A DNA stretch of 55,243 nucleotides from the NCBI GenBank assembly GCA_001783715.1, contig MFNF01000068.1:1-55243 (forward strand), given 5' to 3'. This document shows positions 8,097 through 37,503 of the stretch, piece by piece. The translations under genes and the position numbers were made by a program. The notes under the pieces are model-generated. The model ran no database searches and was not told the DNA's origin. It worked only from the letters and a program-made list of their open reading frames with translations. Position 1 is the stretch's first letter. The number at the start of each line of letters is the position of its first letter. This stretch comes from Candidatus Lambdaproteobacteria bacterium RIFOXYD2_FULL_56_26. GTDB lineage: Bacteria > SAR324 > XYD2-FULL-50-16.

Positions 8097-9293
<1,197 letters not shown>

Positions 9294-9429
9294 GGTAGAA
9301 AAAACAATCTGTTCCGCTCTTTCATCCTGTCAATTCAACCTGTTGATTTTATTTAATCAAATGGTCAGTTCTTTTGGTGCCCACCAACCTTCTCCAAAAA
9401 ACGAAACATCCCAATAGATTCCAATCAGT
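9294..9429 (+). promoter_or_regulatory. CRISPR leader with candidate IHF sites
   Basis: A 136-base AT-rich stretch between the cas2 stop and the first repeat, in the position of a type I-E leader. The minus strand of 9336-9348 matches the IHF consensus WATCAANNNNTTR exactly (AATCAACAGGTTG); 9355-9367 on the plus strand is a one-mismatch match. A perfect inverted repeat TTGGTG-CC-CACCAA lies at 9374-9387. The array promoter must lie here or in cas2, but no clear box pair stands out. Confidence 0.7.
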
Positions 9430-12400
9430 CTGTTCCCCACCCCCGTGGGGATGAACCGAATCACCGCTGCTTTCTTGGCGGACTTCATCACTGTTCCCCA
9501 CCCCCGTGGGGATGAACCATGTTGATCTTCGGCCAACAAAAAACTTCCGGCCTGTTCCCCACCCCCGTGGGGATGAACCGTTGATCAAGGCGCTCAAAGA
9601 CATCCTGGCGATCTGTTCCCCACCCCCGTGGGGATGAACCGTTTGATCCTGGGGCTACCTGACCTGGAAATCCCTGTTCCCCACCCCCGTGGGGATGAAC
9701 CGGCCTCGGCGCTGTTTGGGTTCGGGGTCCTGGCCTGTTCCCCACCCCCGTGGGGATGAACCGGGTTTTGGGGAGGGGTTCGCCCACCTGTTTGACTGTT
9801 CCCCACCCCCGTGGGGATGAACCGACAGCCCTGGCGCTGCCACGGCAGGGTTGGAGCTGTTCCCCACCCCCGTGGGGATGAACCGGGCCACCCGGATGTA
9901 CGGGTGGGCCGCCGTGTCTGTTCCCCACCCCCGTGGGGATGAACCGGTTCGGCGACCGGCTCTTTGCCTTTGAAACCCCTGTTCCCCACCCCCGTGGGGA
10001 TGAACCGAGCTCGCCCGTGTGCTCAAGCCCCAAGGGGCGCTGTTCCCCACCCCCGTGGGGATGAACCGCTCTGGCCGAGGCCTTCATGGAGGACTTGGAG
10101 CTGTTCCCCACCCCCGTGGGGATGAACCGCACCCCCGAGAATGATCAACTTGGCATTGATACTGTTCCCCACCCCCGTGGGGATGAACCGGCTATCCGGT
10201 TTACGTGGGCTTCGACCCTAACCTGTTCCCCACCCCCGTGGGGATGAACCGAAGTCCGTCCGGGCTGAACTCAGGGCTACCGACTGTTCCCCACCCCCGT
10301 GGGGATGAACCGATGGGGACGAAACTGGCGGCGTGGGCTATCGCCTGTTCCCCACCCCCGTGGGGATGAACCGGCGGTTAGTGGAGCAATACCGGGCCGA
10401 GATCGCTGTTCCCCACCCCCGTGGGGATGAACCGCGAGAACGAGAGCAAGAGCATCAAACCGATGACTGTTCCCCACCCCCGTGGGGATGAACCGGTGGC
10501 GTTGTCGGGATAAATGAGTTTCATGCGCTGTTCCCCACCCCCGTGGGGATGAACCGTGAGCACGCAGGTCTCCCAGGCCCGGCAGGTGCTGTTCCCCACC
10601 CCCGTGGTGATGAACCGTCATAAAAATCAGAGACTTAGGCCACTTATTCCTGTTCCCCACCCCCGTGGGGATGAACCGTGGCATCGTGCCCTGTTTCTCT
10701 CCCTTCGTAACTGTTCCCCACCCCCGTGGGGATGAACCGCTAATGGCGGCAACGATTCCGTCCAGATGATCCTGTTCCCCACCCCCGTGGGGATGAACCG
10801 CCCCTGGGAGGAAACTATTGTTGCGCTCTCACCTGTTCCCCACCCCCGTGGGGATGAACCGACACACCCTAACCAGACAAAAAGCGCTCCGAGCTGTTCC
10901 CCACCCCCGTGGGGATGAACCGGGCTAAATGTTTGACAAACTAAACATATGTTTCTGTTCCCCACCCCCGTGGGGATGAACCGTTCTTTCCGTTCTTCGG
11001 TAGTCAACCGATACCCTGTTCCCCACCCCCGTGGGGATGAACCGCGTTTCCGCGCAATAACACATTGTCCCGAGAACTGTTCCCCACCCCCGTGGGGATG
11101 AACCGCCGAAACTCGTTGATCCACCTGCCGCCGTCTGCTGTTCCCCACCCCCGTGGGGATGAACCGCTAGGCTGTTGTTCATCGTCTGCGCCATTGAACT
11201 GTTCCCCACCCCCGTGGGGATGAACCGTCTTCCCGCTTGAACATATGTTCCTTTTGTTGCTGTTCCCCACCCCCGTGGGGATGAACCGAGCTCCACCGTG
11301 TAGGCCTCAGAAAACAGGGTCTGTTCCCCACCCCCGTGGGGATGAACCGATAGCCGAATTTTTGTCAAAGACGGGCCGAAACTGTTCCCCACCCCCGTGG
11401 GGATGAACCGTTCTGGGAGGGTCTTAACGCCGAAGCTGTTCACTGTTCCCCACCCCCGTGGGGATGAACCGCTCTCATAAAGTTGACCTTATCGATCAGT
11501 AATCTGTTCCCCACCCCCGTGGGGATGAACCGTTGGCCCGGCTCCAAAACGAATGGCGGGCGAACTGTTCCCCACCCCCGTGGGGATGAACCGGCAACCC
11601 GTTAGATTTGAAAATACTGCGGTTCCTGTTCCCCACCCCCGTGGGGATGAACCGTTGGTTTAACTTTTCCCTGTCCCCGCAATGTTCTGTTCCCCACCCC
11701 CGTGGGGATGAACCGGGTTATGCCTATCCACGAAAAGCCGTATCCCCCTGTTCCCCACCCCCGTGGGGATGAACCGTAAAAATTATTTTCTATATTCAAA
11801 AAGGGCTACTGTTCCCCACCCCCGTGGGGATGAACCGCCGAAACTCGTTGATCCACCTGCCGCCGTCTGCTGTTCCCCACCCCCGTGGGGATGAACCGAG
11901 TTTTTGGACAAGGAGCCCGACCCCAATGAACTGTTCCCCACCCCCGTGGGGATGAACCGGCCCGCCTTCTTGCATGACCTGGGCGTAGGATCTGTTCCCC
12001 ACCCCCGTGGGGATGAACCGGCTTTGGTTCCCATACCTCTTTTACCTCCGTCCTGTTCCCCACCCCCGTGGGGATGAACCGGACTTGGGCCTGTTTTCTC
12101 GGTCCGCCGTGGTCTGTTCCCCACCCCCGTGGGGATGAACCGGGGTTTTGATTGAAAATCGACCGGCGCTGGAGCTGTTCCCCACCCCCGTGGGGATGAA
12201 CCCGCAGAGCCCCGAAAAGATCAAGCCGAGTTCCCCTGTTCCCCACCCCCGTGGGGATGAACCGGGGCCGGGTGGTCCTGGGGAGCCGGTAAGGCCCTGT
12301 TCCCCACCCCCGTGGGGATGAACCGAGTGCTCAGGCTTTTGGAGACCCGGTCGGCCACTGTTCCCCACCCCCGTGGGGATGAACCGGTGGCCCCTTATTT

Positions 12401-22170: not shown

Positions 22171-24495
22171 ATGAAAAGTCTGACAGGGTCTTTGGTTTTG
22201 TTGTGGGGTTTGGGCTGGATGGCCGGGCTCTGTGGAGTCCAGGCCGCATTCGGGTCTCCGCTGGTTTTAACCGGCCAAACCTCCCCCGGCCCGCTTTGGT
22301 CGCACCTGGAACTGCTTGAAGACCCAACGGGCACCCTGGGGCTCGCAGAGGTCCAGTCCGGCCGGTTTACCCCCAACCAGGAACATACCCCCAACTTTGG
22401 CTTCACCCAAAAAACCCTGTGGGCTAAGGTGTCGCTCCAAAGTCGGTCCGCCGAAGAGACCCACTGGCTTTTAGAGTACGCCTATCCTTTGATCGACCAC
22501 CTGGAACTGTTTGTGGTCGGGCCACAAACCCCGCTGCAACACTTTGTCACTGGTGACGCACTCCCTTTTTACAGCAGGCCCTTGGGCCACCGGCATTTCC
22601 TGTTCCCCTTGACCCTCAAGGCCAACGAAACCCTCGATTTGTACCTGAAGATCCAGGCCGAAGACACCCTGGAAATCCCCCTGATTTTGTGGAACCCCGC
22701 TGACTTCTATGCAGCGGACCACCATTCCCAAATGGTCTTTGGGCTGTACTTCGGGATGATGGCGGTGATGGTGTTGTTCAACAGCTTCTTGTTTTTGTTG
22801 GGCCGGGAGAAGGGATACCTCTATTATGTGGCCTACAGCCTCAGTTTTACCCTGGTGATCTTGACCCTGTCCGGGTTTGGTTTGGAGGTGTTCTGGCCCC
22901 AGTCGCCGGTTTGGAACAAGCTGGCTCGGCCCTTTTTTATCGGCACCACCGTCTTTTTCAACGGCTTTTTCCTCAAAGCCTTGCTGGAACCACAAAAGGC
23001 TTTGCCTCGGCTGGACAAAGCCCTGTCCTTCCTGATGGGACTGGGGTTGTTTTGTTCTGTCCTGGCCGTGGCGGGGCAAATGGCTGTGGCCATTGTTTTG
23101 GGCGTGGCGGTTTCGATCCTGGCTGCAGGGGTGGCACTCCTGGTCGGACTGTTCCGGTTTGTCGGCGGTTATCAGGCAGCCAGACTTTATTTGGCCGGCT
23201 GGAGCAGCCTGCTTTTGGGGATCATCCTCTACTGCCTGCGGGCCTTTGGGCTGATGGAGCCCAACTTTTGGGTCAACTACGGGTTGATGTTCGGTTCGGC
23301 GGTGGAGGTGGTCCTGCTCTCCTTGGCCATGGCCGACCGGATGTCCCAGTTGTCCAAAGAGCGGCACCAAGCCCAGGAGGAAACCCACCAAGTCCAAAAG
23401 CTTTTGATCGAACAACTCCAAGAGACCGACCGGATCAAAAACGACTTCCTCCAAAACATGACCCATGAGCTGCGGACCCCGCTCAACGGGATGGTCGGCA
23501 CCGCCAATCTGTTGTCCTCGACCTCGCTTACCCCCGACCAGCGGGAGCTGGTGGAGGTGATCGGCTCTTGCAGCCAAAGCCTAACCCAGGTGATCGGCGA
23601 TATCCTGGACCTCGCCAAGATCCAACGGGGGGCCATGCAGACATTGGACGCTCCCTTTGACCCGACCCGGGAGTTGGAGAGCCTCTTCCACCTCTTTGGC
23701 CCGGCGGCCCGAGAAAAAAAGCTGGACCTGAAACTGGAGCTGGACGACCTGCCCCCAAGACTGACCGGGGATGCACACAAACTGGGGCAGATTTGCAGCA
23801 ATCTGGTCAGCAACGCCCTCAAGTTCACCGCCCAAGGCAAAGTCCGGCTCAAGGCCAAGGTGGCCCGGCAAACAGAAACACAGGTCTGGCTGGAGTTCGA
23901 GGTCACCGACACCGGGGTGGGGATCGACCCCTTGGTGTTGCCCCAAATCTTCAAACCCTTCACCCAAGGGGATTCTTCACTGCGCAAGGCCTTCCAGGGT
24001 GCTGGGCTGGGGCTGACCTTGGTGCGGCAGCTGGTGGGGTTGATGAACGGGGAGATTTCCTTGGCCAGTGAAATGGGCAAAGGCACCAAGGTGAGGTTCA
24101 CTTTGCCCTTCACCGCCGTTGCCCCGGCAGCGGTGGGACCGGTGGGGAAAAAGGTGCTGGTCTTGGAGTCGGATCCTGTCAACCGGCTGGTGTTGGGAAA
24201 GTGGTTTGAATCCAAGGGTTGTTTGGCCCGGCTCTGCGAAACCGCCGATCAGGCCCAGCGGCTGAGCAAATACGAGAAGTTCGACCTGCTGCTGGTGGAC
24301 CTGATTTTTAACCCCACCGGGGAACCGGGGTGGTATGAATCCTTGCGCCCCGGCAATGCCGAGGTGCCCTTGGTCGCCTTGACCCACCTTGCGGGGCTGG
24401 TCCCCCAAGGGCAGGCAGGCCCCAGGGCCTATCTGGTCCGGCCCTATACGGCCCAAGGGCTGGAGGCCACCTTGGCCCCCTTTTTGGGAACCTAG
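22171..24495 (+). CDS. 7TMR-DISM hybrid sensor histidine kinase
   Basis: A 774-residue membrane kinase. A signal peptide (residues 1-28) precedes a periplasmic 7TMR-DISM extracellular domain (~30-190, with FTQKTLWAKVSL and WLLEYAYPLIDHLELF, typical of DISMED2), seven membrane helices (~195-390), a HisKA domain with MTHELRTPLNG (phospho-His ~430), and a HATPase domain with NLVSNALKFT, DTGVGIDP and GLGLTLV. The C-terminus is a receiver-like domain: Asp in LLLVDLIFN (~709) and a Thr in VALTHLAG remain, but the usual KP is RP (LVRPYT), so phosphorelay may be altered. DISM receptors usually sense sugars or other small ligands. The stop overlaps the convergent TerB-like gene by four bases. Confidence 0.93.
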   Translation: MKSLTGSLVLLWGLGWMAGLCGVQAAFGSPLVLTGQTSPGPLWSHLELLEDPTGTLGLAEVQSGRFTPNQEHTPNFGFTQKTLWAKVSLQSRSAEETHWLLEYAYPLIDHLELFVVGPQTPLQHFVTGDALPFYSRPLGHRHFLFPLTLKANETLDLYLKIQAEDTLEIPLILWNPADFYAADHHSQMVFGLYFGMMAVMVLFNSFLFLLGREKGYLYYVAYSLSFTLVILTLSGFGLEVFWPQSPVWNKLARPFFIGTTVFFNGFFLKALLEPQKALPRLDKALSFLMGLGLFCSVLAVAGQMAVAIVLGVAVSILAAGVALLVGLFRFVGGYQAARLYLAGWSSLLLGIILYCLRAFGLMEPNFWVNYGLMFGSAVEVVLLSLAMADRMSQLSKERHQAQEETHQVQKLLIEQLQETDRIKNDFLQNMTHELRTPLNGMVGTANLLSSTSLTPDQRELVEVIGSCSQSLTQVIGDILDLAKIQRGAMQTLDAPFDPTRELESLFHLFGPAAREKKLDLKLELDDLPPRLTGDAHKLGQICSNLVSNALKFTAQGKVRLKAKVARQTETQVWLEFEVTDTGVGIDPLVLPQIFKPFTQGDSSLRKAFQGAGLGLTLVRQLVGLMNGEISLASEMGKGTKVRFTLPFTAVAPAAVGPVGKKVLVLESDPVNRLVLGKWFESKGCLARLCETADQAQRLSKYEKFDLLLVDLIFNPTGEPGWYESLRPGNAEVPLVALTHLAGLVPQGQAGPRAYLVRPYTAQGLEATLAPFLGT

Positions 24496-26213
24496 GCGGT
24501 CTTGTTTTTTTTGACCGGTTCGACCTTGGGATGAAAGCCGTCCAGGGCGGAAGGGGTGAACTGCTCCTTGTTGTCGAAGGACCGCTTGACCAACGGCAGG
24601 AGCTTGGAGGCCTGGGCCTTGGAATTGGGGTCCAACTTGTCCCCTTTGTCGCCCAACTGCATAAAAAAGTTCAGGTACCGGTTGGCATCCGGTTTGTCTT
24701 CCCGGTAGAGGGCCAAGAAAAAGAGGGTCTTGGCCGCCTGCATCAAAAAGAGGTCGTTCCGGCAGGTTTCCATCATCTGCTCGCACAGGTGCCTGACATG
24801 GGCCAGCTGCTCCAAGGCCTCCGCCTTCTGGCCCCCTCGCATCAACACCTCCGCTTCGTCCATCCTAGTCTTGGCGACCTCCCAATTCAGCTCGTAGGCA
24901 TTGTTGAAATTCATCGCCTCTTGGGCCTGGGCGGCGGTTTCAAAACAAAGTTTCACAAACTCCAGGTCCGGGTCCGGTGCGCCCAAGAAACTCAAAAAGG
25001 GAGCAAACCGTTTTTTCCGTAAATCCAGCCCGTGGCCCCACTGGCTTTTGAAGTTCCCTTGGAGATGTACGGGAGGTTTGTCGGTGGCCTCTTTCTTGAA
25101 AAAGGCCTTCTCCCCGGAGGCAAAAAAACAGCGAGGGCAGACCATGATCTTGTGCCGCAGGTAGTCAACCACCAAGTCCCCTTCCTTGATGAAGCTGGGG
25201 CGGCCAAAGAGGTTGGAGACCAAAGCGGCACCGACCCGCAGGTGGAAGTGGTTGACCTCTTTGCTCCCGCAGATGAAACATTCAAAGATCCGGGGGGTAA
25301 AGATTTCCTTGGGCTTGGGGGCGGCTTCCTTGGCTCCGGGACCGGCCATTTTGACCGCCCCGATCAACGGGTTGCGGTTGTTGTTCCATTCCACCCGTTG
25401 GGCACACCAAGCCATCAAGGCGCTGAACTGGGTAGCACTGATGCTGCAAAGTTTGGAGAGCCGTTCGAGGTGGGTGGATTCGTTGACCGAAATCTTGTCG
25501 TCCAAGGCGATCAGCAAGATCACGTCCACCATCACCCGGACCAGTTTGGCCGGGTTGAAGTCCTGGGGCGGGGCTTCAAGGTTAGGGGAGAAGCGGTTTT
25601 TGATGTAACCTAAAAACAGATTTTTTTTGCCCTTGTCTGCAACCAATGAAATGGCGGCCTTCAAAAATTCCATTTCCATGCTGTCCACTTCCCGGTCCAG
25701 GAGAATGGTGGAAATCATCACTTGGGCGTACCATTCCCGCTGGGGGGCGGGCAGGGATACCAGCCAGGTCGGCCCGCTGTCCAGGTCCACCTCGGGGGGC
25801 AAAAAGTTCTGCTGCCGTTTTTTCCATTCCAGCCCGGTGTTCATCCAACCATTCAGGTCGTTGATGTACCGGTCACTGAAGTTCATCAACCTGGCGATCT
25901 GGGCCAAGAAGTCCCGCTCCTCTTGGTCGAACTCCGAATCGCTGATCATGATCAGGCAAAGCTCCAGGTAAATCGCCGCCAAGGTCTGGGGCGGGATGCC
26001 CGGCGGGGGCGGGACCAAGGGAGAGGCCTTTTTGGTTTCCACTTGGGACAAAAGTGCTTTTTTGTCTGCCGGATTGTCGATGACCGAGATGATCTGTTTT
26101 AAAAACTCGATCTCGCTTTTGACGATCTTTTGGTCCGCCAAGATGGCCGCCACCACGAGGTTGGCGTACCATTTTTTTTGTGCGGCATTGAGGTGATTGA
26201 CCGGAACGCTCAT
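24492..26213 (-). CDS. TerB-like / DUF2225-like zinc-ribbon protein
   Basis: About 573 residues from ATG 26213; an upstream in-frame start at 26270 would only add a proline/glycine-poor hydrophobic tail. Two or three N-terminal helical repeats resemble TerB (tellurite-resistance/DjlA-type) folds: AAILADQKIVKSEIEFLKQI, LIMISDSEFDQEERDFLAQI and LIALDDKISVNESTHLERL share an acidic D-x-x-x-x-x-E-x-x-FL pattern that may bind metal. The middle has CFICGSKEVNHFHLR and MVCPRCFFASG, a paired-Cys ribbon like DUF2225. The C-terminal third is a TPR-like helical region. No signal peptide, so cytoplasmic. It lies downstream of the CHAT operon in the same direction, but a terminator-like hairpin separates them. 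Confidence 0.6.
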   Translation of the reverse strand: MSVPVNHLNAAQKKWYANLVVAAILADQKIVKSEIEFLKQIISVIDNPADKKALLSQVETKKASPLVPPPPGIPPQTLAAIYLELCLIMISDSEFDQEERDFLAQIARLMNFSDRYINDLNGWMNTGLEWKKRQQNFLPPEVDLDSGPTWLVSLPAPQREWYAQVMISTILLDREVDSMEMEFLKAAISLVADKGKKNLFLGYIKNRFSPNLEAPPQDFNPAKLVRVMVDVILLIALDDKISVNESTHLERLSKLCSISATQFSALMAWCAQRVEWNNNRNPLIGAVKMAGPGAKEAAPKPKEIFTPRIFECFICGSKEVNHFHLRVGAALVSNLFGRPSFIKEGDLVVDYLRHKIMVCPRCFFASGEKAFFKKEATDKPPVHLQGNFKSQWGHGLDLRKKRFAPFLSFLGAPDPDLEFVKLCFETAAQAQEAMNFNNAYELNWEVAKTRMDEAEVLMRGGQKAEALEQLAHVRHLCEQMMETCRNDLFLMQAAKTLFFLALYREDKPDANRYLNFFMQLGDKGDKLDPNSKAQASKLLPLVKRSFDNKEQFTPSALDGFHPKVEPVKKNKTA

Positions 26214-26294: not shown

Positions 26295-28151
26295 CTACTG
26301 AACCACAAATTCCGCCGTCTGGACGGTGACGTTGCCCAGACGGTCCGTTGCTTCCACCACGACCTTGTGGTTTCCCAATTTGTCCAAGGTCATAGCCGAG
26401 GCTACCACCTTGTTTCCCGTACCGTCCACTTGGGCCAGAATTTTATCCATCCCTACGTCCAGGTCGGTAGCGGCAAAAAAGACCAAGGTACCCTTGGGGT
26501 AGATCGGTAATCCATTTTCCTTGCCCAATTCACCGTTGCTGAAATGTAAAAACAACTCGGGAGGCACATTGTCCACAAAAAACTCTGCCTTTTGGGTGGC
26601 CGCAAGGTTGTTGACCTTGTCTTTGCTCTCATATTCCAGGCTCACCAAGCCCTGACCGGGGATATTGACCGGTTCGGCAAAAACCGCTTTTGGGTCTTGC
26701 GCTTGGAGGCCGGAAAACCGGTAGGAAATTTCCGCTACCCCGGCCCCCTGGTCCTTGGCCGACAAGACCAATTGGCTCCGGGAGCATAGGTACAATCGGC
26801 CCCGCCAAGTCACCTGGGGGCCCAAAAACTTGTGGCTCGGTTCGGGGGCGATTGGATCGTAAACAAAGTCCAGCCGGACTTCTTTGGCTTGGTTGGTGAC
26901 CTTGTCTTCCGCTTGGATACGCAAAAACTGTAGCCCCAAAGGCCGCTCCAAAGGGGAAACCGGGCTTTGGTAGAGGCTGATCGGTTCCTTGTCGAACCCA
27001 TAACGGATCTCTTTGACCCCCGCCTTGTTGTCGGTGGCGGTCAGGGCGATTTTGGTCCGAGCGGAAAAGAACAGGGTTTTACCCTCGAAGGACTGGTCCC
27101 CGACAATCTCATAGGCAGGCTCGGGGCCGGAGCGGTCCAGGAAAAAATCCAAGGTTTGAACCTTTTCTTGGTTCATCACCCCGTCCAAAGAGGCGTAACG
27201 CAGTTGGTGGAGGCCTTCGGCCAGTTTGTCGAGCTTGATCGGTTTGAGGTATTTGTTCCCCAAGGGGTCCTCATCGATCTGGGCAAAAATCGAAGCCACC
27301 CCGGCTTGGTTGTCTGTGGTGGCCAGTTGGAATTCGGTGAACGGGGAGAGCACCAGCCCCACCGCCGGTCCAACCGTTTCTAAGGTGGTTTGGGGAGAGG
27401 TCAGGTCAAGGGCAAAATGGAACTCCTTGACCGGCTCGGGGTTGCCCACCCGGTCCAAGGCATAATACCGGAGCTGGACCAAGGGTGCCTGCCCGCCAAA
27501 TTCCAGGGGCGCTTGGTTGACCACAAACGGCTGGCCTTCCAAGGAAGTGAAGACCGACTCGACCCCCGAGAGCCCATCGGTGGGCTCCAGGGTGATCAAA
27601 ACCGGCTTGCCGAAAATGGTTAAATCCCCAACCACCAGCTTTTCCTTGACCTCGGTCTTGAGTTTGGTCTCCGGCGGTTGTCCGTCTGCCCGGATCTGGA
27701 AAAAGGAATTCGGCTCGGCCACCGAACTCAGGTGGGAGCCTACTCTGGCTCGGCTTTTTTCCCATTCCGCTTCGTTGGGGTGGACCAAGGTGTGGTTGCC
27801 GTCGTTTTCAAAAAACAGCGGCACCGGTTTCTGGTCCCCTTGGGTCAGGGCGGTGGAATTGAGCAGTACCACCTCTTCTCCTTTGCCGGTCGAGTCGGAG
27901 GTGAGCTTGAGGTAGATCGGGGCGGCAAGGTTGACGTAGAGCACCCCGGTGGGGGCGGTGTAAAACTTTTTTGGGTGCACCAAGGGCGGGGCCGGTTCTT
28001 GGGCCGCTGCGGCAGGAGCGGGAGCCTGGGGGACGGCTTCTGCTTGGGCCTTGGTTGGCAAGGGCTCCGCCTGGCCCTGGCCGAAGGCCAGACCTGCCCC
28101 CAGAACCACCAGCGCCAAAGCCCAGATTGTTTTGCCCACCAAAAAACGCAT
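26295..28151 (-). CDS. Exported OmpL47-type repeat protein (downstream of CHAT protein)
   Basis: A 618-residue protein starting at ATG 28151 with a signal peptide (MRFLVGKTIWALALVVLGAG, cleavage near AFG-QGQA). A proline/alanine-rich linker follows, then about five OmpL47-like beta units of ~85-90 residues. Each has the signature: LxxxDNxAGVxxIxYxxD (ATDNKAGVKEIRYGFD, AKDQGAGVAEISYRF, ATDLDVGMDKILAQVD), ending in YxxxDxVxNxE (YYALDRVGNPE, YASLDGVMNQE, YESKDKVNNLA). Such domains are found in exported or surface-associated proteins. It begins 32 nt after the TPR-CHAT stop. An in-frame upstream start overlaps that gene, but the signal peptide supports 28151. Confidence 0.8.
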   Translation of the reverse strand: MRFLVGKTIWALALVVLGAGLAFGQGQAEPLPTKAQAEAVPQAPAPAAAAQEPAPPLVHPKKFYTAPTGVLYVNLAAPIYLKLTSDSTGKGEEVVLLNSTALTQGDQKPVPLFFENDGNHTLVHPNEAEWEKSRARVGSHLSSVAEPNSFFQIRADGQPPETKLKTEVKEKLVVGDLTIFGKPVLITLEPTDGLSGVESVFTSLEGQPFVVNQAPLEFGGQAPLVQLRYYALDRVGNPEPVKEFHFALDLTSPQTTLETVGPAVGLVLSPFTEFQLATTDNQAGVASIFAQIDEDPLGNKYLKPIKLDKLAEGLHQLRYASLDGVMNQEKVQTLDFFLDRSGPEPAYEIVGDQSFEGKTLFFSARTKIALTATDNKAGVKEIRYGFDKEPISLYQSPVSPLERPLGLQFLRIQAEDKVTNQAKEVRLDFVYDPIAPEPSHKFLGPQVTWRGRLYLCSRSQLVLSAKDQGAGVAEISYRFSGLQAQDPKAVFAEPVNIPGQGLVSLEYESKDKVNNLAATQKAEFFVDNVPPELFLHFSNGELGKENGLPIYPKGTLVFFAATDLDVGMDKILAQVDGTGNKVVASAMTLDKLGNHKVVVEATDRLGNVTVQTAEFVVQ

Positions 28152-28183
28152 GTCGCAGCGGCCCGTCAAGGGGAATAAGGTTT

Positions 28184-31100
28184 TCAAGGATTGCCGTACA
28201 GCACAAAAGGTGACCAGAAGAAGGGGTGGCTCCGGTAGGGAGACTTGAGGAACTCCTTCTGGGTTTCCCACATTGCCGTTTGGGCGTTTGCTCCGGCCAA
28301 AAATCTAGCGTAAAAATGGTCCATAAAGTCGGCGGTGGCATCGTCGGAAATGGTCCACAAGGTGGTGGAGACCGACTTGGCCCCTGCCTCCTGGAAAGCC
28401 CGGCCCAGGCCATAGACCCCTTCGCCCTGCTTGACATCCCCAACCCCGGTTTCACAAGCCGAGAGCACCACCAGATCGGTCCCCACCAGATCCAGGTTGA
28501 GTGCCTCCAAGGCGGTCAGGACCCCGTCCGAGCCGTCTTCCCGGGTCACCCCTTGGAATCCGTAGTTGGCGCTGGAAAGCGCCAGGCCAGCTCGCAACAT
28601 GGGGTTGGTGACCGGCTTGACCTTGGTGTCTTCCGGCTTTTTGGCCGACTGCAGCTCGGAGCCGCTTTCAATGGGTTTGGCTTCGGTGGGCAAAAAATAC
28701 CCGTGGGTAGCCAAATGCAAAATCCGTGGCGCTTTTACATTTTTCAGGTTGGTTTCGGTCGCCAGGGCCTCGGCAAAAACCGTCGGGACGATTTGCCGTT
28801 TGGAGAACAGCTGGGTCAACCGTTTGGCTTCAATCTCGGTGCCCGGCAAGGGGTCAAACTCCAAAGAACTGAAGGCTCCCTTTTCGCCCGAATCGGCCCG
28901 TTCGTGGGCCTCGGCCACCATGGCCTTGTTGGCTTCCTGGTAGTTGGGGGCGGCAAAGATCACCGATTTGCCCGGCTCGGCCACCAACGAAGGCACCGCC
29001 AAGTCCCTGGAGCTGGAAACATAAATTAACTGGTAATTTTCGATCAGGTAGCTGTCCCCTTTGCGCAGGGCATTAAAGGGGAGCAGGTACAAGGGGCCGT
29101 CGGGCACCAAAAAGACCCGTTTTTTCCCTTTCAGGTAGGGCTCCAAAGGCTTCCAGACCAAGTCATACACCCCGGCGGAGACCTCCCAAAGGTCTTTGAT
29201 CTGGTCTGGGCCCACCGGCTCGACGATCTGCTCTCGCATCGCCTTGATCCAGTCCTGGAGCTGTTCAAAGTCCCCCAAGGAAACCAGCCCAAAGGGTTTG
29301 TCCTTGTCCCCGGTGACCACGATCGCCATGGCGGTGCTGCCGATCACCTCCCGGCTTTTGGGGTTGACCTCGGTAAAAACCAGGAAGTCCACCAAAGCGT
29401 CGTCGGGCTTGAGGGCCCGCTGGACTGCTTCGGGGGCAACCGGGGTTTTGGCCCGGCGGAACTGTTGGACCATAAAGCCCAGCTCGGACTCCAGTTTGTC
29501 CAAGGTTTCCTGGAGGCCGGTCACTTCCTTGTCAAACTCGGCCGGAGGTTTTTTGCCCGGCCCCACCAGGACCATGGCGGCCAATTTTTGTTTGTTCGAC
29601 TTGAGCCGTTCGGCGGTTTCTCGGACCGCCGGGTTGTTGGCCGATTTAGCCACTGCGTTGATCTCACTGGTAATTTTAAGCAGCATCCCCTTGCGGGCCA
29701 GGGAATACCGGAGCGCCTCCCGGGCGACTTCGGGGCTGATGTTTTGTTTGTAGAAGGAAAGCATGTAGGCCTTGGCCTTGTCTTGCATCTGGATGTAGCT
29801 TTGCCTTGTTTCATCGTCCGCCGCCCAGAGCACCTGTTCCAAAAATTGGTTGGAAGAGTCGAGGCTCAATTGCCAGTAGGCCAAGGATTGTTTGACGTTG
29901 CCTTCGGCTTGGTAGCTTGCCGCCAAGTTGTTGAGGGCTTTTAAGGTGTTGGGGTGTTGGCTGCCCAAAACCTTTTTGCTTTGTTCGTAAACCTTGGCAA
30001 AAATCTCCCTGGCTTTGTCCACCTTGCCTTGGCTTTGGTACAAAAAGCCCAGGTTGTTGAGGGCCACCATGGTGCTGGGGTGGTCGGGACCCATCACCTT
30101 TTCGTAAAACTGGGCGGCCTTTTCCACATGGGGCTCTGCGTCCGCATACCGGCCTTGGATTTGGTACAAGGTGGCCAAGGTGGAGATGGAGGCGATGGTG
30201 TCGGGGTGTTCGGGTCCCAAGACCTTCTGCCTTGCGGCCAAGGTCTTTTCGGCCAGTCCCTGAGCCTTGGGGAAGTCCTTTTTGGCTTGGTAGAGGGCCA
30301 CCAAACGGTCGGCCATGGCCAAGGTGTCGGGATGTTCGGCACCCACCACCCGGTTTTGGACCTCCAAGGTGCTCAGGTACAATTCCTCTGCCTTGTCCAG
30401 TTGTCCCTGTTCCTGGTAGAGGGCGGCCATGGCGGCGAAGGCGGCCAGGGTGTCGGGGTGCTCGGGACCCAGCTTTTTGGTGCGCAGGCCGATCACTTGC
30501 TCGATCAAGGGCCGGGCCTTTTGGAAGGCGGCCATGGCTTGGTAGAGCCGGGCCAGATTAAAGACCGAAGCCAAGGTTTGCGGGTGGTCCTCGCCCAGGA
30601 CTTTTTTGCGCAGCTCCAAGGACTTGAGGAACAAAGGCTCGGCTTTGCCGTAAAGACCCTTGGCCATGTAGGCCCCCGCCAGGGCATCGATACTGGCCAA
30701 AGTGTCGGGGTGCTGGGCCCCCAACACCTGGGTCCTCAGGTCCAAGACCTGCTCAAACAAAGGCAAGGCCTCATTGTACCGCCCTTCGGACTGGTAGAGG
30801 CTGGCCAAGTTGTTGATGGCGCTTAGGGTGTTGGGGTGCTTGGGGCCGCTCACCTCTTCGCTCAAGTTGAGCGCAATGGTAAACAGCGGGCGGGCTTGGT
30901 CGTACAACCCGGCGGCCAAAAAGAAGTTGGCCAGATTGTTGAAGCTGGCGATGGTGTTGAGGTGCTTTTTCCCGTACAAGGCGATGTGAAGCTCCAAGGC
31001 CCGTTCAAACAACGGTTTGGCCTTGTCCAGCGCCCCAATGGTCTGGTAGAGGCTGGCCAGATTGTTCATCACGATCACTGTCCCGGCCTCGTTTTCCCCA

Positions 31101-34100
31101 AACAGAGCCTTGGCGATGACCAAAGCCTTTTCCATGTAGGTCTTGGCCTGTTCAAAGCCCCCTTGTTCGCTCTCCAGGTTGGCCAAGTTGTTGATCGCCA
31201 CCAGATGGTCGATCGAGGTCTCCCCGGAAAGCTCCAAAGCCAAATCTCGGGCTTTTTCGTACAAAGGCTTGGCCTTGGTGAACTGCCGCTGGTTGGACAG
31301 GGTCCCGGCCAAAGCGTTGAGCGAGTTGAGGTAGTTTTGGTGCTTGGGACCGCTGATCTTCTCGGCCAAAGCCACCCCTGCCTCCAGGGTCTGGATGGCC
31401 AATTCGGGCTGGCCGTTTTCGTCCAGCGACTGGCCCCATTCGTTCAAGGACACCAGGGTGTCCAGGTTCAGTTCCCCTAAGGTCCGCTTCCGTTCTTCAT
31501 ACAAGGTTTGGTTGAGCGCCACCGCCTCGGCCTTTTTGCCGGTCCGCCGGTAGAGGCTGGCCAAACTGGCCCGGGTCAGCAGGGTCTTGGCGTGACTGGG
31601 GCCCAGGATTTTGGCTTGGGCGGCGGCAACCTCCAAAAAGAGTTTTTCCGCTTCCTTGAAGTTCAGCTGGACCCGGTAAACCAAGGCGATTTGGTAGAGG
31701 CTCTCCAGGGTGTCCCGGTTTTCCTTGCCCAGGACCTTGGCCCGGCCTTGGTAGGCTTCGGTAAAGGTCTTGAGGGCGGTTTCCCAATCCTGCTTGTCCC
31801 GGTAACCGGTGGCAACCCGGTGCAGGGCCGCAAAGGTGGCGGGATGTTGGGGGCCAAAGATCTCTCGGGTCAGGTCGTAGGCCTGTTGGAACAGCTCCAA
31901 CCCTTGGTTGGCATCCCCAACGGCCAGATAGTAGTCCCCCAACTCCTTGAGCGAGGTCAGCCGGTCAGGATGTTTGGGGCCCAAGGCTTGGTTTCTGAGT
32001 TTCAGCGCCTTGACCAGCGGCTCCTTGGCCTCGTCATACCGGCCCAAGGCCAGATACAAACGGCCCAGGTCCGAGAGACCGCTCAAGGTTTGTGGACCCA
32101 AGGGGCCAAAGACCTTTTCCTTGATCGCCAAGGCCTGCTTGTAGTTTGCCTCCGCCTGGGGACCGTTCCCTTCGGCTTGGTACAAGGAGGCCTCGTTGAC
32201 CAGGAAGGTCACATAGGCCGGGTGGTCCTCACCGTAATGTCCTTTGGTCAGCGCCAAGGTAGTCTGGTAGAGCCGGTGGGCCTCTTCATATTCTCCCAAG
32301 GCCTGATGAATGCTGGCCCGGTTGGCCAAGATCACCAGTCGGGCCAAACCGGTTTCTCCGTAAAGTTGGATAGCCAGTTCCAAGGCCTCGTCCACCAACG
32401 GTGCCGCTTTGGTGTATTCCCCCAGGGTTTGTAGGGTGGCCGAGCGGTTGTTGAGGGCGGTCAAAAGGTCCGGGTGAGCCTCCTGGTACCTTGCCTTGGC
32501 GAGGCCCAGGGCCACTTCGGTCAAAGGGGCCGCTTTCAGAGGGGCTTCGGTTTCCAGGTAATAGGCCGCCAAGTTGTTGTAGGACTGGAGGGTCTGGGGC
32601 GAGGTCCGACCCAAAACCCGCTCCCTGGCTTTGAGGTTGCCAACCAGCATGGCCTCGGCGGCGTTGTAGTCCTTGGCCGCCCCCAAGGCGATGCCGTAGT
32701 TGTTGGCCGAAACCAAGGTGTCGATGTGGTTGGGCCCCAGGGTCTTGAGCCTGGTTTCGTAACTTTTTTGGAAGCCCAGCAGGGTATCGCCGGGGTCCGA
32801 AGAGTTGAGGTTAGAAGAGGCAAGGTTGCTTTGGGCGGCCAAGGTCTCTTTGGCTCCTTCACCCAAAATGCTGCCATAGGTGGTCAGAGCCTTGGAAAAG
32901 TGGGTGGAGGAGGTGGCAAAGTCCCCGTGGTCATAGGCATGAAGTCCGGTCTCGTTGTCCCGGCGGGCCAGACGAAGGGCCCCTTTGGCGGCCCGGTCCA
33001 TCCCCTGGGCGTATCCCTTTTTTGTGGGGTCCAGTGTTTGGGCGGTTTTGTAGTACCCATAGGCGGTTAAAAATTCAAACTGTTCTTCGGCCCTCAGGCC
33101 CAACCGGTAAGCAAAACCGGCTTGCACTGCCGCTGGGGCCGGGTTGGGGGCGACCAAGGCCCGCTCGAAGGCCCCTTTGGCACCGTCCAAGTTGCCTAGG
33201 GCCACCTGGGCCCAACCCACATACCCTGGGTACAGGGCTCGGGAGGGGTCCAAGGCCTCGGCCTGCTCAAAGCTTGCCTTGGCGGCGGTAGGGTCGGCAG
33301 GCAGTTGGGCGAGACCTTTGCCAAAGAGCAGTCTGGCTTGGTTGACCTTGTCTTGGGCCGCCTCGTACCGAGTCGCAACGGCAGCCAACAGTTCTGCCCG
33401 GCGGTTCAGGTCTTTGGTGGCCAGGGCCAGGGCCTCCAAATAAATCGTAGGCTCCGGGTCCTTGGTGGTGGCTTCTTCAAAAAGCTTAAAACCCCAGTCT
33501 TCCTTTTTGCCGTTGAGCAGGACCAGCCCTGCCTCATAGGCAGCCTTGGCCTGGGCCTTGACCTGGAGCGCCTTGATCCTTGTGACCCCTTGTTGGTAGG
33601 CGGGCTTAGGGTCCAATTCCTGGGCCTTGGTCATGCGGCTGAGCGCTAGGTCCAACTGCCCTTGGGCTTGGGCCTGGGCAGCCTGGGCGGAAAATTCCTC
33701 GGCCTGGACCGCTTTGAGCAACCCTTGGGCGCGGGCCAATTGGGCCTGGGCTTGGGGTTGGTCTTCCAGACCTAAGGAAGCTTCGGTCCGGCGGATCCCT
33801 TCGATATACCTTCCCGCTTCGATCAACCCCAAAGCCGCCGCCAGTTCGGCTTGGGCCTTCTGGTGGACCAGGGCCTTTTGGGTTTGGACCAGCAGAGTTT
33901 CGGTCTCGGGGGTTCTTTCAATCTTGAGCGCTGCCAAAAGCCGGGGGATCGCTTCAGCGAACTTGGCCTCCTGGACCAAAGCCTGGGCCGCATCCAATTC
34001 TACTTGGGCTTTTTGGTGGACCAATGACTTTTGGGTTTGGACCAGCAAGGCTTCGGTCTCGGGGGTTCTTTCAATCTTGAGCGCTGCCAAAAGCCGGGGG

Positions 34101-35371
34101 ATCGCTTCAGCGAACTTGGCCTCCTGGACCAAAGTCTGGGCCGCATCCAATTCTACCTGGGCCTTCTGGTGGACCAGAGCCTTTTGGGTTTGGACCAGCA
34201 GAGTTTCGGTCTCGGGAGTTTTTTCGATCTTGAGCGCCGCCAAAAGCCGGGGGATCGCCTCGGCAAATTTAGCCTCTTGGACCAAAGCTTGGGCCGCATC
34301 CAATTCTACCTGAGCCTTTTGGTGGACCAGTGATTTTTGGGTTTGGACCAACAAGGCTTCGGTTTCCTTGGTCTTTTCGATTTTTAATGCCGCTTCGATC
34401 CGGGGGATCGCCTCGGCAAATTTAGCCTCTTGGACCAAAGCCTGGGCCGCATCCAATTCTACCTGGGCCTTTTGGTGGACCAGAGCCTTTTGGGTTTGGA
34501 CCAGCAGGGCTTCGGTTTCCTTGGTCTTTTCGATTTTTAATGCGGCTTCGATCCGGGGGATCGCTTCGGCAAACTTGGCTTCCTGGACCAAAGCCTGGGC
34601 TGCATCCAATTCTACCTGGGCCTGCCGGTGGGTCCAGGAGGCTTGGACTTTTTTTGCGCCAATGAGATAGGCGGGGTCCGCAACCCACTGGTGGGCCTCT
34701 TGGTAAGCGGTTATCGCCTCAGCAAACTTCCCTTCCTCCTCCCATATCTTGGCTTGGGCCGCTATGGTTTGGGCCTTTTGGCGGTTCAAGGAGGCCTTCA
34801 CCCGGGCTAAGGCCTCCTGGTAGGGTTTTTCCGCCGACAGGGCCCAGGCCTTTTCATAACCGGCAATGGCGGCCTCCCACCGGCCTTGGGTCTCCTGTTC
34901 TTTGGCCAAGTCTGCCTCCGCCTTGGCTTGGGATTGGAGCAACGTCAACTTGGCGGTGGCCAACGCCTCCTTGTAGGTTTTTTCGGGCAACAACAAAACC
35001 GCCGCCTCCAGGGCCTCGATGGCCCCGTTGAGGTCTCCTTTGGCCTGCAGATCCTTGGCTTTTTCAAAAGCCACCTTGGCCTTGTAGCGGACCAATTCGG
35101 CCTTGGTTTTGACTAGGGCCAAGTTGTACAGGGGCTGGGGGTCCAGCTTGAGGGCGGCCTCAAAGCTTTGGATCGCTTGGCCCAGCCGCTCCCGCCGTTG
35201 GTAGCTGAGCCCTTGCTTGTATTCCCCCAAGGCCTTCTCTTGGTCCGGGGTCAGCTGGACCTGGGCTTCCTTTTTCGGGCTTTTGGAGCCCCCCTTTTTC
35301 TGCGCCGCCCCAGCAGGGGAAGCAAAGCCCAGAGTGAGGGCAAAACAAAGCAGCAGGATCGCTTTTTTCAT
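28184..35371 (-). CDS. Giant exported TPR-CHAT (caspase-like) protein
   Basis: A 2395-residue protein. A signal peptide (MKKAILLLCFALTLGFASPA) targets it out of the cytoplasm. Residues ~30-600 are lysine/alanine-rich helical repeats, including five near-identical 51-residue units (~251-505). Residues ~600-1900 are TPR and kinesin-light-chain-type 42-residue repeats with the hallmark G-x-x-H-P-x-T-L (for example GPKHPNTLSAINNLASLYQ, cut to 19). The C-terminal ~350 residues are a CHAT domain with catalytic His in HLATHGYF (~2223) and Cys in LSACETG (~2306), then GLGRAFQEAGA and FWSPFVLYG. CHAT peptidases are caspase relatives; here the dyad looks intact. It overlaps the upstream OmpL47 gene by ATGA. 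Its substrate is unknown. Confidence 0.9.
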   Translation of the reverse strand: MKKAILLLCFALTLGFASPAGAAQKKGGSKSPKKEAQVQLTPDQEKALGEYKQGLSYQRRERLGQAIQSFEAALKLDPQPLYNLALVKTKAELVRYKAKVAFEKAKDLQAKGDLNGAIEALEAAVLLLPEKTYKEALATAKLTLLQSQAKAEADLAKEQETQGRWEAAIAGYEKAWALSAEKPYQEALARVKASLNRQKAQTIAAQAKIWEEEGKFAEAITAYQEAHQWVADPAYLIGAKKVQASWTHRQAQVELDAAQALVQEAKFAEAIPRIEAALKIEKTKETEALLVQTQKALVHQKAQVELDAAQALVQEAKFAEAIPRIEAALKIEKTKETEALLVQTQKSLVHQKAQVELDAAQALVQEAKFAEAIPRLLAALKIEKTPETETLLVQTQKALVHQKAQVELDAAQTLVQEAKFAEAIPRLLAALKIERTPETEALLVQTQKSLVHQKAQVELDAAQALVQEAKFAEAIPRLLAALKIERTPETETLLVQTQKALVHQKAQAELAAALGLIEAGRYIEGIRRTEASLGLEDQPQAQAQLARAQGLLKAVQAEEFSAQAAQAQAQGQLDLALSRMTKAQELDPKPAYQQGVTRIKALQVKAQAKAAYEAGLVLLNGKKEDWGFKLFEEATTKDPEPTIYLEALALATKDLNRRAELLAAVATRYEAAQDKVNQARLLFGKGLAQLPADPTAAKASFEQAEALDPSRALYPGYVGWAQVALGNLDGAKGAFERALVAPNPAPAAVQAGFAYRLGLRAEEQFEFLTAYGYYKTAQTLDPTKKGYAQGMDRAAKGALRLARRDNETGLHAYDHGDFATSSTHFSKALTTYGSILGEGAKETLAAQSNLASSNLNSSDPGDTLLGFQKSYETRLKTLGPNHIDTLVSANNYGIALGAAKDYNAAEAMLVGNLKARERVLGRTSPQTLQSYNNLAAYYLETEAPLKAAPLTEVALGLAKARYQEAHPDLLTALNNRSATLQTLGEYTKAAPLVDEALELAIQLYGETGLARLVILANRASIHQALGEYEEAHRLYQTTLALTKGHYGEDHPAYVTFLVNEASLYQAEGNGPQAEANYKQALAIKEKVFGPLGPQTLSGLSDLGRLYLALGRYDEAKEPLVKALKLRNQALGPKHPDRLTSLKELGDYYLAVGDANQGLELFQQAYDLTREIFGPQHPATFAALHRVATGYRDKQDWETALKTFTEAYQGRAKVLGKENRDTLESLYQIALVYRVQLNFKEAEKLFLEVAAAQAKILGPSHAKTLLTRASLASLYRRTGKKAEAVALNQTLYEERKRTLGELNLDTLVSLNEWGQSLDENGQPELAIQTLEAGVALAEKISGPKHQNYLNSLNALAGTLSNQRQFTKAKPLYEKARDLALELSGETSIDHLVAINNLANLESEQGGFEQAKTYMEKALVIAKALFGENEAGTVIVMNNLASLYQTIGALDKAKPLFERALELHIALYGKKHLNTIASFNNLANFFLAAGLYDQARPLFTIALNLSEEVSGPKHPNTLSAINNLASLYQSEGRYNEALPLFEQVLDLRTQVLGAQHPDTLASIDALAGAYMAKGLYGKAEPLFLKSLELRKKVLGEDHPQTLASVFNLARLYQAMAAFQKARPLIEQVIGLRTKKLGPEHPDTLAAFAAMAALYQEQGQLDKAEELYLSTLEVQNRVVGAEHPDTLAMADRLVALYQAKKDFPKAQGLAEKTLAARQKVLGPEHPDTIASISTLATLYQIQGRYADAEPHVEKAAQFYEKVMGPDHPSTMVALNNLGFLYQSQGKVDKAREIFAKVYEQSKKVLGSQHPNTLKALNNLAASYQAEGNVKQSLAYWQLSLDSSNQFLEQVLWAADDETRQSYIQMQDKAKAYMLSFYKQNISPEVAREALRYSLARKGMLLKITSEINAVAKSANNPAVRETAERLKSNKQKLAAMVLVGPGKKPPAEFDKEVTGLQETLDKLESELGFMVQQFRRAKTPVAPEAVQRALKPDDALVDFLVFTEVNPKSREVIGSTAMAIVVTGDKDKPFGLVSLGDFEQLQDWIKAMREQIVEPVGPDQIKDLWEVSAGVYDLVWKPLEPYLKGKKRVFLVPDGPLYLLPFNALRKGDSYLIENYQLIYVSSSRDLAVPSLVAEPGKSVIFAAPNYQEANKAMVAEAHERADSGEKGAFSSLEFDPLPGTEIEAKRLTQLFSKRQIVPTVFAEALATETNLKNVKAPRILHLATHGYFLPTEAKPIESGSELQSAKKPEDTKVKPVTNPMLRAGLALSSANYGFQGVTREDGSDGVLTALEALNLDLVGTDLVVLSACETGVGDVKQGEGVYGLGRAFQEAGAKSVSTTLWTISDDATADFMDHFYARFLAGANAQTAMWETQKEFLKSPYRSHPFFWSPFVLYGNP
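33857..34621 (-). repeat. Five tandem 153-bp repeats inside the TPR-CHAT gene
   Basis: Five in-frame 51-residue units, each opening AQVELDAAQALVQEAKFAEA and closing LLVQTQK(A/S)LVHQK. Copies differ mainly at RIEAALKIEKTKETEA versus RLLAALKIE(K/R)TPETE(A/T). A sixth, diverged unit (AQAELAAALGLIEAGRY) follows. DNA similarity is high, so the tract is likely to vary in copy number. Confidence 0.9.
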
Positions 35372-37329
35372 GGCCGGATCCTGAACAGAATGGTTTCCTT
35401 GGCCTCGTTGCCCACTTCGTCCTTGCCGATCAGCAGGATCTGGTAATCCCCGACTTGGCTAAAGGCCACCGGCCCGGTAAAGGGTTTGACCACCGCCCCG
35501 TTGAGGCTGTAGGCCAGCTCGGCAAGGCCGCTCTCCTGGTCCGAGCTGGCCAAAAACAAAAGGGTACCCAGAGGGTAAACCGCCGCCCCTTGGTCTTCTT
35601 CCTTTTGGTTGGAAAAATAATAAAACAATTGTGGCGGCTGGGGGTCCACATAAAATTCCAGTTTTTGCGGTGCTTCCAAATTCCCCACTTGGTCCACGCC
35701 GTGGTATTCAATGACCACCTCACCCTTGTCTTGGTCGGTATCCAAAGGTCTTTGGTACCGGTCGGTTTGCCCGGCCTTGGAAAACTGGATCTCCCGAACC
35801 CCCGAATCCGGGTCTTGGGCCTCCAGGATCAGGCGGTTCCGTTGGGAGACAAACAACCGCTGGTCCCGTTTGAAGGGGGCGGTTTCAAACCGCCAGAGAC
35901 TTTTGGGCGGGAAGAGGTCCACATTGAGGGTCAGATTTTTTTCGATGCTTTTGTTGTCCGCTTTGTCGGTGGCCTGGAAATAGTACTTGTACTCCCCCGG
36001 CTTCTGGGGCACTGGCAGGGGGCCTTGGTAGGGAGTGGTCTTGCCGTTGTCCTGGCGGAACCAAACCTCTTTGACCCCCAGCTGGTCGTCCTTGGCATCC
36101 AGGATCACCTGCGAACGGCCCGAGACAAACAGCTGTTGCCCCTTAAGAAATTTTTCGCCCACAATGTTGCCGATTACGTAAGGCGGCTCCTTGTCCAGGT
36201 AGTCGTCAAAGCCCCCGCCGACCTTTTCCGCCAACACCGCCGACTTGCCCAAGGGGTTGAGCCTCGCCCGCTCCGCCCGGTCGGCCAAAGCGAGGTCCAA
36301 GGCGGTCCCCTGGAAGGGCCGCAAGGTCATCTTGGGGTTGGAGGCAAACTTGGCAAACAGCTCCCGAGAAGCAGGGGTTTCGCTGACCTTGACAATCTTC
36401 AGCGGCGCTTGGGTCGCCCGCAGGTTGCCTTTGGCGTTTTCCACCTCCAGGTGCTTTTCGGCGACCTGTTGGTCCAGGCTGCCCAAAATCTCGTGGGGCT
36501 CCGAAGGGTTGCCGACCCGGTCGGTCACCGCCACCCGAAAGGAATGGTGGCTTTCCGGTTTGAAGGTCACCGGGCCTTGGTAGGCCTCAAAGGGGGCTCG
36601 GTTGAGGGAATAATAAATCTGGTCCACTCCCGATTCCGGGTCCTTGGCTTCGAGACTGACCACCCAAGGTCCGGTTTCTACAGCGTCCGGGGGCCCCTGG
36701 TTGGTGATCGAATAACTGGCCTTGGGCGGGGTGAAGTCCCCTTTGACCCCACGGCTGTCCTTGAGCTTCTGGGCCAAGTCGAGCACCAAGGTGACCTGGG
36801 CCGAATCGTTGGACTGTTGGGCCGGCTGTTGCAGCAAAACCCCCGGACCGGGGGCTTTGGCGTCCAAGGAGATACGAATCCAGACCTTCTGCTGGGGGAC
36901 AAAGACCTGCCCGGTTTCCGGGTTCTGGTAAATTTTTGGGGCCGGAGCCGGTCCGGGCGCTTCGGGGGGCGGCTCGACCGGATGTTCGGGAAAACTGGGA
37001 CCGGGGAGCTCCAAGGTTGCGGCGGCCCGAAGAGGGAGAGTGGGCGGTTTAGTGGTCTTGAGGGGCGAGGAAGGCGGACTGGCCGGGGTAATTTTACCGG
37101 CAGCAGGCTTGGAGAGAGCCGTTGCCGCCTTGCTGTCCGACGGTCGTGCGGAGGCGACCTTGCCGGTGGTAGGACTTGGCACCACCGTTGGGGCTACTGC
37201 TGCCCCGGCGGGGGCTGAGGCCAAGGCGATCCAGGCCAAGTAACCCAAGGCGGTTTGCACTCTGGAACCCAGCGGTCCCCAGGGCAGCCCAAATTTGTTG
37301 TTGTGCCCGCCTAGGTTTCCCCGCCCCAT
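35368..37329 (-). CDS. Exported OmpL47-type repeat protein (upstream of CHAT protein)
   Basis: About 653 residues from ATG 37329 (a TTG at 37368 is also in frame). A hydrophobic stretch TALGYLAWIALASAPAGAA near residues 26-45 looks like a signal peptide, followed by a long Pro/Ala/Thr/Ser-rich linker (to ~140). Then come OmpL47-like beta units: AKDPESGVDQIYYSLN, AKDDQLGVKEVWFRQD, AQDPDSGVREIQFSK and SSDQESGLAELAYSLN, each closing with a D-x-x-G-N motif (VTDRVGNPSE, VDQVGNLE, KDEVGNEA). The architecture mirrors the 26295-28151 gene, indicating paralogues. The stop overlaps the TPR-CHAT start (ATGA), so the two are translationally coupled. Confidence 0.78.
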   Translation of the reverse strand: MGRGNLGGHNNKFGLPWGPLGSRVQTALGYLAWIALASAPAGAAVAPTVVPSPTTGKVASARPSDSKAATALSKPAAGKITPASPPSSPLKTTKPPTLPLRAAATLELPGPSFPEHPVEPPPEAPGPAPAPKIYQNPETGQVFVPQQKVWIRISLDAKAPGPGVLLQQPAQQSNDSAQVTLVLDLAQKLKDSRGVKGDFTPPKASYSITNQGPPDAVETGPWVVSLEAKDPESGVDQIYYSLNRAPFEAYQGPVTFKPESHHSFRVAVTDRVGNPSEPHEILGSLDQQVAEKHLEVENAKGNLRATQAPLKIVKVSETPASRELFAKFASNPKMTLRPFQGTALDLALADRAERARLNPLGKSAVLAEKVGGGFDDYLDKEPPYVIGNIVGEKFLKGQQLFVSGRSQVILDAKDDQLGVKEVWFRQDNGKTTPYQGPLPVPQKPGEYKYYFQATDKADNKSIEKNLTLNVDLFPPKSLWRFETAPFKRDQRLFVSQRNRLILEAQDPDSGVREIQFSKAGQTDRYQRPLDTDQDKGEVVIEYHGVDQVGNLEAPQKLEFYVDPQPPQLFYYFSNQKEEDQGAAVYPLGTLLFLASSDQESGLAELAYSLNGAVVKPFTGPVAFSQVGDYQILLIGKDEVGNEAKETILFRIRP

Positions 37330-37469: not shown

Positions 37470-37503
37470 AACCTAGGTCTTGGACCTTAACAAAGACTAG
37501 GTT
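37470..37503. promoter_or_regulatory. Inverted repeat upstream of the OmpL47/CHAT operon
   Basis: AACCTAGGTC (37470-37479) and GACTAGGTT (37495-37503) form a 9-bp imperfect stem with a 15-nt gap, about 140 nt before the first operon start and without a T-tract. It could be an operator; no promoter boxes are clear. Confidence 0.3.

Follow-up and report, generated by a model that had tools for sequence, protein, structure and literature searches.

An exported-looking TPR-CHAT protein encoded between two OmpL47-type genes in one SAR324 genome

Introduction

The best-studied TPR-CHAT protein, Csx29, works in the cytoplasm as the CRISPR partner in the type III-E Craspase; its TPR superhelix leads into a CHAT peptidase at the C terminus, and it reportedly cleaves Csx30. 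HetF of Anabaena, the founding CHAT protein, has been reported to be membrane associated and located at the septum (PMC8406250); it has a CHAT domain at its N terminus, a single transmembrane segment, and a role in the divisome. DdvA (8rot and 8rw5), a transmembrane anti-sigma factor that is presumably extracytoplasmic, has a CHAT-like fold. Leptospira OmpL47 (LIC13050), a member of the OmpL47 repeat family (NF047446), has been reported to be surface exposed (PMC2698987). Our literature search found no paper on secreted CHAT proteins and none that names SAR324 and the CHAT domain together. Here we describe a SAR324 locus in which a gene for a very long TPR-CHAT protein lies between two genes for OmpL47-type proteins.

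Results and discussion

Gene structure of the locus

The window analyzed is a 55,243-nucleotide stretch (contig MFNF01000068.1, positions 1 to 55,243) of Candidatus Lambdaproteobacteria bacterium RIFOXYD2_FULL_56_26, whose genome (G000; 3.08 Mb in 68 contigs) is 97% complete. Its open reading frames bear out the three minus-strand genes that an earlier note on this DNA had described, with the first two coupled by an ATGA overlap (Table 1). For gene C, the best start is the ATG at 28151, since the GTG at 28271 given in the open reading frame list would overlap gene B. Genes A, B, and C are probably transcribed together, judging from their layout, and their tight clustering in this genome suggests co-expression. 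The TerB-like gene that follows is a possible operon tail, with no evidence tying its function to the other three. Between the tRNA-Arg gene and gene A lies an imperfect inverted repeat (AACCTAGTCTT...AAGACCTAGGTT, window positions 37470 to 37503), a possible operator or attenuator. Promoter and terminator scans gave counts near chance and were set aside.

Table 1. Features of the A-B-C locus, in window positions
Feature	Positions	Strand	Description
Gene A	35368..37329	-	Exported-looking protein, 653 aa; N-terminal linker rich in Pro/Ala, plus OmpL47-type (Ig-like) repeats; ATG at 37329, stop at 35368
Stop/start overlap of A and B	35368..35371	-	ATGA
Gene B	28184..35371	-	2395 aa; predicted signal peptide, helical/TPR repeats, and CHAT peptidase
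Signal peptide of B	35303..35371	-	MKKAILLLCFALTLGFASPAGAA; called by inspection and heuristic
Tandem repeats of B	33852..34623	-	Five near-identical copies of 153 bp (51 aa) in the N-terminal helical part
TPR_12/TPR_10 block of B	29882..32770	-	~42-aa repeats, residues ~868 to 1830
CHAT domain of B	28190..29170	-	PF12770, residues 2068 to 2394
Predicted catalytic His2223	28703..28705	-	HLATHG
Predicted catalytic Cys2306	28454..28456	-	LSACETG
Gap between B and C	28152..28183	-	32 nt; compatible with a single transcript
Gene C	26295..28151	-	Exported-looking protein, 618 aa; small N-terminal beta domain, then five Ig-like OmpL47-type repeats
TerB-like gene	24492..26213	-	573 aa; follows C as the next same-strand gene, ~80 nt away

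The three genes have the GC content of their surroundings (0.55 to 0.60), and a foreign origin was rejected on that ground; a search for a plasmid copy found no match. The neighbors examined (pnp, truB, a ketoacyl-synthase-like gene, the TerB-like gene, a histidine kinase, and a GGDEF-EAL gene) included neither Cas7-11 (gRAMP) nor Csx genes adjacent to B. The genome holds three OmpL47 genes and three CHAT genes in all, and two of the OmpL47 genes flank one CHAT gene on the same strand, which under random gene order would be very unlikely (rough estimate, ~1e-6). Together with the extreme profile E values given below, this improbable flanking argues that the observation is not due to chance.

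Protein B

Protein B is, as the earlier note held, a 2395-residue TPR-CHAT protein with an intact His-Cys dyad (H2223 and C2306). The match of its CHAT domain to PF12770 reaches E = 1.7e-70 (238.2 bits against a curated cutoff of 24), and that of its repeats to TPR_12 reaches E = 2.2e-167. The N terminus, MKKAILLLCFALTLGFASPAGAA, reads clearly as a typical Sec signal. The 153-bp tandem repeats (89% matches) have the appearance of a recent expansion, and their copy number likely varies among strains. Among homologs, the dyad motifs are kept in 112 of 117 relatives of B, and the dyad itself is invariant in those aligned, except for masked bases in one. The nearest CHAT relative, L021 from the same family, is 43% identical; in the tree, it groups with B beside the standard TPR-CHAT protein of the phylum, both on long branches. 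Genome G000 also encodes a copy of that standard protein (contig C32) and a third, different CHAT protein (contig C31).

For the last 601 residues of B, the predicted structure has a modest pLDDT of 70, and parts of its CHAT domain fall below 50. Searched by fold, the model matched the Craspase TPR-CHAT protein best (7zoq, E = 8e-10; 8d9f), followed by DdvA (8rot, E = 3e-5), separase, and SAVED-CHAT; by sequence, even the closest solved structures were weak matches, and the similarity to DdvA is slight (E = 0.04). B thus resembles Csx29 in domain order but differs in having a predicted signal peptide, in being ~3 times longer, and in lacking Cas genes nearby. It shares a CHAT-like fold with DdvA, without the membrane and anti-sigma parts of the latter, and it shares membership in the CHAT family with HetF, whose CHAT domain is at the opposite end. 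The shared fold of a transmembrane anti-sigma factor would fit a B that serves as a nonproteolytic sensor or scaffold in the envelope, its dyad a relic. We regard this as the least probable of the readings weighed here, since the HxATHG and SACETG motifs are kept in B and in nearly all of its relatives, which argues for catalysis.

Proteins A and C

Both A and C match the OmpL47 repeat profile NF047446 far above its cutoff of 40 bits (A, E = 1.2e-52 and 176.2 bits; C, E = 1.8e-51 and 172.5 bits), and they align with each other at 29% identity over 443 aa (E = 4e-49). The two are distant paralogs, in agreement with the earlier note. Neither reached the 250-bit cutoff of the Leptospira OmpL47 equivalog NF047441 (C, 164.8 bits; A, 111.2 bits), and both are longer than the Leptospira protein with which they share the repeat family. 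In Pfam, A matches Big_13 and C has no match. By inspection, both appear to carry a signal peptide, a plausible one in C and, in A, one whose n-region is long.

The structure of C was modeled with AlphaFold from a 16-row alignment (mean pLDDT, 85). In the model, a disordered Pro/Ala-rich N terminus precedes a small beta domain, after which come five sandwiches, each of ~90 aa. Foldseek placed this model among Ig-like rods (the Aureispira grappling-hook protein GhpA, complement components, and cadherins). As predicted, C is a string of Ig-like sandwiches with Ig-like rods as its PDB matches and does not have the fold of an outer membrane beta-barrel; the "beta-barrel" in the OmpL47 family name is therefore questionable for A and C.

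Relatives within the family and order have a stand-alone OmpL47 gene (~570 to 650 aa), and G000 has one as well, on contig C27. In the tree, A and C sit on long branches close to OmpL47 proteins from G000, G003, and G005; this placement has middling support and may reflect long-branch attraction. Within the SAR324 OmpL47 family, gene A is highly divergent. In another setting, a propeller/Y_Y_Y/GGDEF gene comes after a pair of overlapping OmpL47 genes of 586 and 1056 aa, with all three coupled (L044:7662-14975); the OmpL47 frames on contig C50 of G050 are close to these in size (598 and 1075).

Export among TPR-CHAT relatives

Inspection and heuristic rules agree with the earlier view that all three products look exported. 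That note had also treated a secreted CHAT protein as unusual, and this part was not supported: most near relatives of B, from many phyla, look exported, and HetF and DdvA are membrane associated. Under a loose signal peptide rule, 68 of the 80 untruncated near TPR-CHAT relatives passed (the 80 nearest named ones, drawn from many phyla), compared with 39% of other open reading frames. Because so many control frames passed, a stricter rule was added, under which 39 of 78 relatives and 99 of 471 other frames passed (Fisher P = 3e-7). These calls come from heuristic rules and inspection rather than from SignalP, and the N termini of the relatives gave the same picture when inspected. As predicted from these N termini, export is common in the branch of CHAT proteins to which B belongs.

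The exported TPR-CHAT family occurs in SAR324, Magnetococcales, Gammaproteobacteria, Cyanobacteria, Bacteroidetes, and other groups, where its members are annotated only as CHAT domain-containing proteins. B shows the same pattern: a signal peptide by heuristic, a TPR array, and a C-terminal CHAT domain. Family members share with B the signal-peptide-like start, the TPR array, a C-terminal part of 600 aa, and the dyad; they differ in being usually 900 to 1250 aa long and in having no OmpL47 neighbors.

Conservation of the CHAT-OmpL47 neighborhood

The co-occurrence of exported CHAT proteins with OmpL47-type neighbors, for which the earlier note had proposed a survey, is not conserved. Among 52 SAR324 genomes, 13 contain both families under the thresholds applied, and the two are adjacent in one of these, G000, the single member of its genus in the set. 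In the order of G093 (Bacteroidales UBA2287), 47 of 247 genomes hold OmpL47 and 32 of these also hold CHAT, with adjacency in none; both families share a contig in a single genome, ~370 kb apart. Within flanks of up to 10 kb, no OmpL47 gene was found at any of the 80 CHAT loci from named records, L021 included, and only 8 of their 44 genomes have an OmpL47 match anywhere. These surveys of adjacency are limited by contig ends and by their single genome of the genus. Two further groups had too few OmpL47 genes for adjacency to be assessed: Acidobacteriota, with OmpL47 in 1 of 247 genomes, and Myxococcota, with OmpL47 in 0 of 141 at 1e-12, in a search without a hit anywhere, which does not prove absence. 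A conserved CHAT-OmpL47 neighborhood was thus rejected by the SAR324 and Bacteroidales-order surveys. The earlier note had named the lack of such a neighborhood in relatives as grounds for refutation, and this lack is what was observed in SAR324, in the Bacteroidales-order genomes, and at the 80 nearest named loci. We found no described system with the A-B-C arrangement, as the earlier note had supposed; the grouping was found in G000 only, where known parts are arranged locally, and does not amount to an established new system.

In the main rival explanation, the genes are neighbors by history: A and C would descend from an old OmpL47 duplication, a duplicated TPR-CHAT gene (B) would have landed between them, and the three products would be exported and work independently. 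CHAT and OmpL47 genes lie apart in every relative examined, and SAR324 keeps both a stand-alone TPR-CHAT gene and a stand-alone OmpL47 gene, as this explanation would have it. The same-strand flanks on both sides, the ATGA overlap, and the 32-nt gap fit it poorly, as does the divergence of A and C (26 to 29% identity), which, if the cluster is equally old, would mean that the cluster was kept. We consider independent action of the three products a serious contender, though short of an even chance.

The reading that we prefer, tentatively and with a probability of roughly 0.45, is that A-B-C is a lineage-specific, probably cotranscribed envelope module, with B docking its partners A and C and perhaps cleaving them. 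The Sec route would take B to the periplasm, if not farther, its long TPR superhelix would act as a docking scaffold, and its C-terminal CHAT domain would be a cysteine peptidase kept inactive as long as the TPRs have bound no ligand or partner, on the model of Csx29 in Craspase. This reading draws on the ATGA overlap and 32-nt spacing, the intact dyad, the signal-peptide-like N termini of B and most relatives, the fold matches of B and C, and the envelope genes, differing by lineage, that adjoin other exported TPR-CHAT genes; the lack of conservation of the grouping speaks against it. A and C, as predicted exported Ig-like rods that are putatively divergent duplicates of the OmpL47-type protein encoded alone in relatives, could serve B as ligand-binding arms, anchors, or substrates.

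A narrower alternative is dedicated proteolysis, with B cleaving or maturing A, C, or both in the envelope as a caspase-like processing of surface rods. The intact dyad and the co-encoded exported multidomain proteins are consistent with it, and Csx29 acting on Csx30 of the same system offers a precedent (PMC10028731; 8eey). Against it, A and C have relatives with no CHAT gene close by, a search for a common cleavage motif found none, and the A-B-C set is not conserved; we think it unlikely. It is likewise doubtful that a single SAR324 lineage has in this locus a dedicated operon for processing surface proteins, in which a caspase-like peptidase outside the cytoplasm cleaves or assembles the co-encoded Ig-like surface rods. 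Of the envelope proteolytic system that the earlier note had suggested, the exported look of the products, the catalytic residues, and the probable cotranscription stand, and a conserved system does not.

Other neighbors of exported TPR-CHAT genes

Envelope genes that adjoin exported TPR-CHAT genes differ by lineage and include those for TolC-family outer membrane proteins (7 members), MtxA (4), and CHASE2 cyclases (4), with TolC-family neighbors in Gammaproteobacteria and MtxA neighbors in Magnetococcales. In several gammaproteobacterial MAGs (L056, L059, L061, L062, L063, and L067), the gene directly after the exported TPR-CHAT gene encodes a TolC-family outer membrane protein and lies within ~90 nt in the same orientation. 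MtxA is a magnetotaxis protein with Ig-like and TPR parts, described from magnetotactic bacteria. Genes of the MtxA family, CHASE2 cyclase genes, or both adjoin an exported TPR-CHAT gene at four loci (L052:7756-8805, L058:12384-13358, L083:11921-12877, and L027:13467-14507) from Magnetococcales, a gammaproteobacterium, and a SAR324 genome; a paper on the MtxA structure mentions a CHASE2 cyclase neighbor but not CHAT (PMC4439547). MtxA-like Ig domains (PF22433) occur in 31 of the 52 SAR324 genomes, usually as a single copy. MtxA was rejected as a partner of B, being present in G000 but on a different contig. The stand-alone TPR-CHAT gene of SAR324 adjoins an unrelated MiaB/MtaB-like gene in four genomes. 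In Amazonocrinis nigriterrae, two 1098-aa TPR-CHAT frames with the same N terminus lie on opposite strands ~160 bp apart (L075:5148-8444 and 8603-11899), either a real inverted duplication or an assembly artifact.

Significance

Taken alone, the A-B-C operon is an oddity found in a single genome. Of wider bearing may be that many TPR-CHAT proteins look exported and keep the dyad. Should the exported CHAT proteins prove to be active peptidases, they would form a widespread, little-studied class of envelope proteases, and their lineage-specific neighbors (TolC-family proteins, MtxA, CHASE2 cyclases, and OmpL47-type rods) would make candidate substrates testable.
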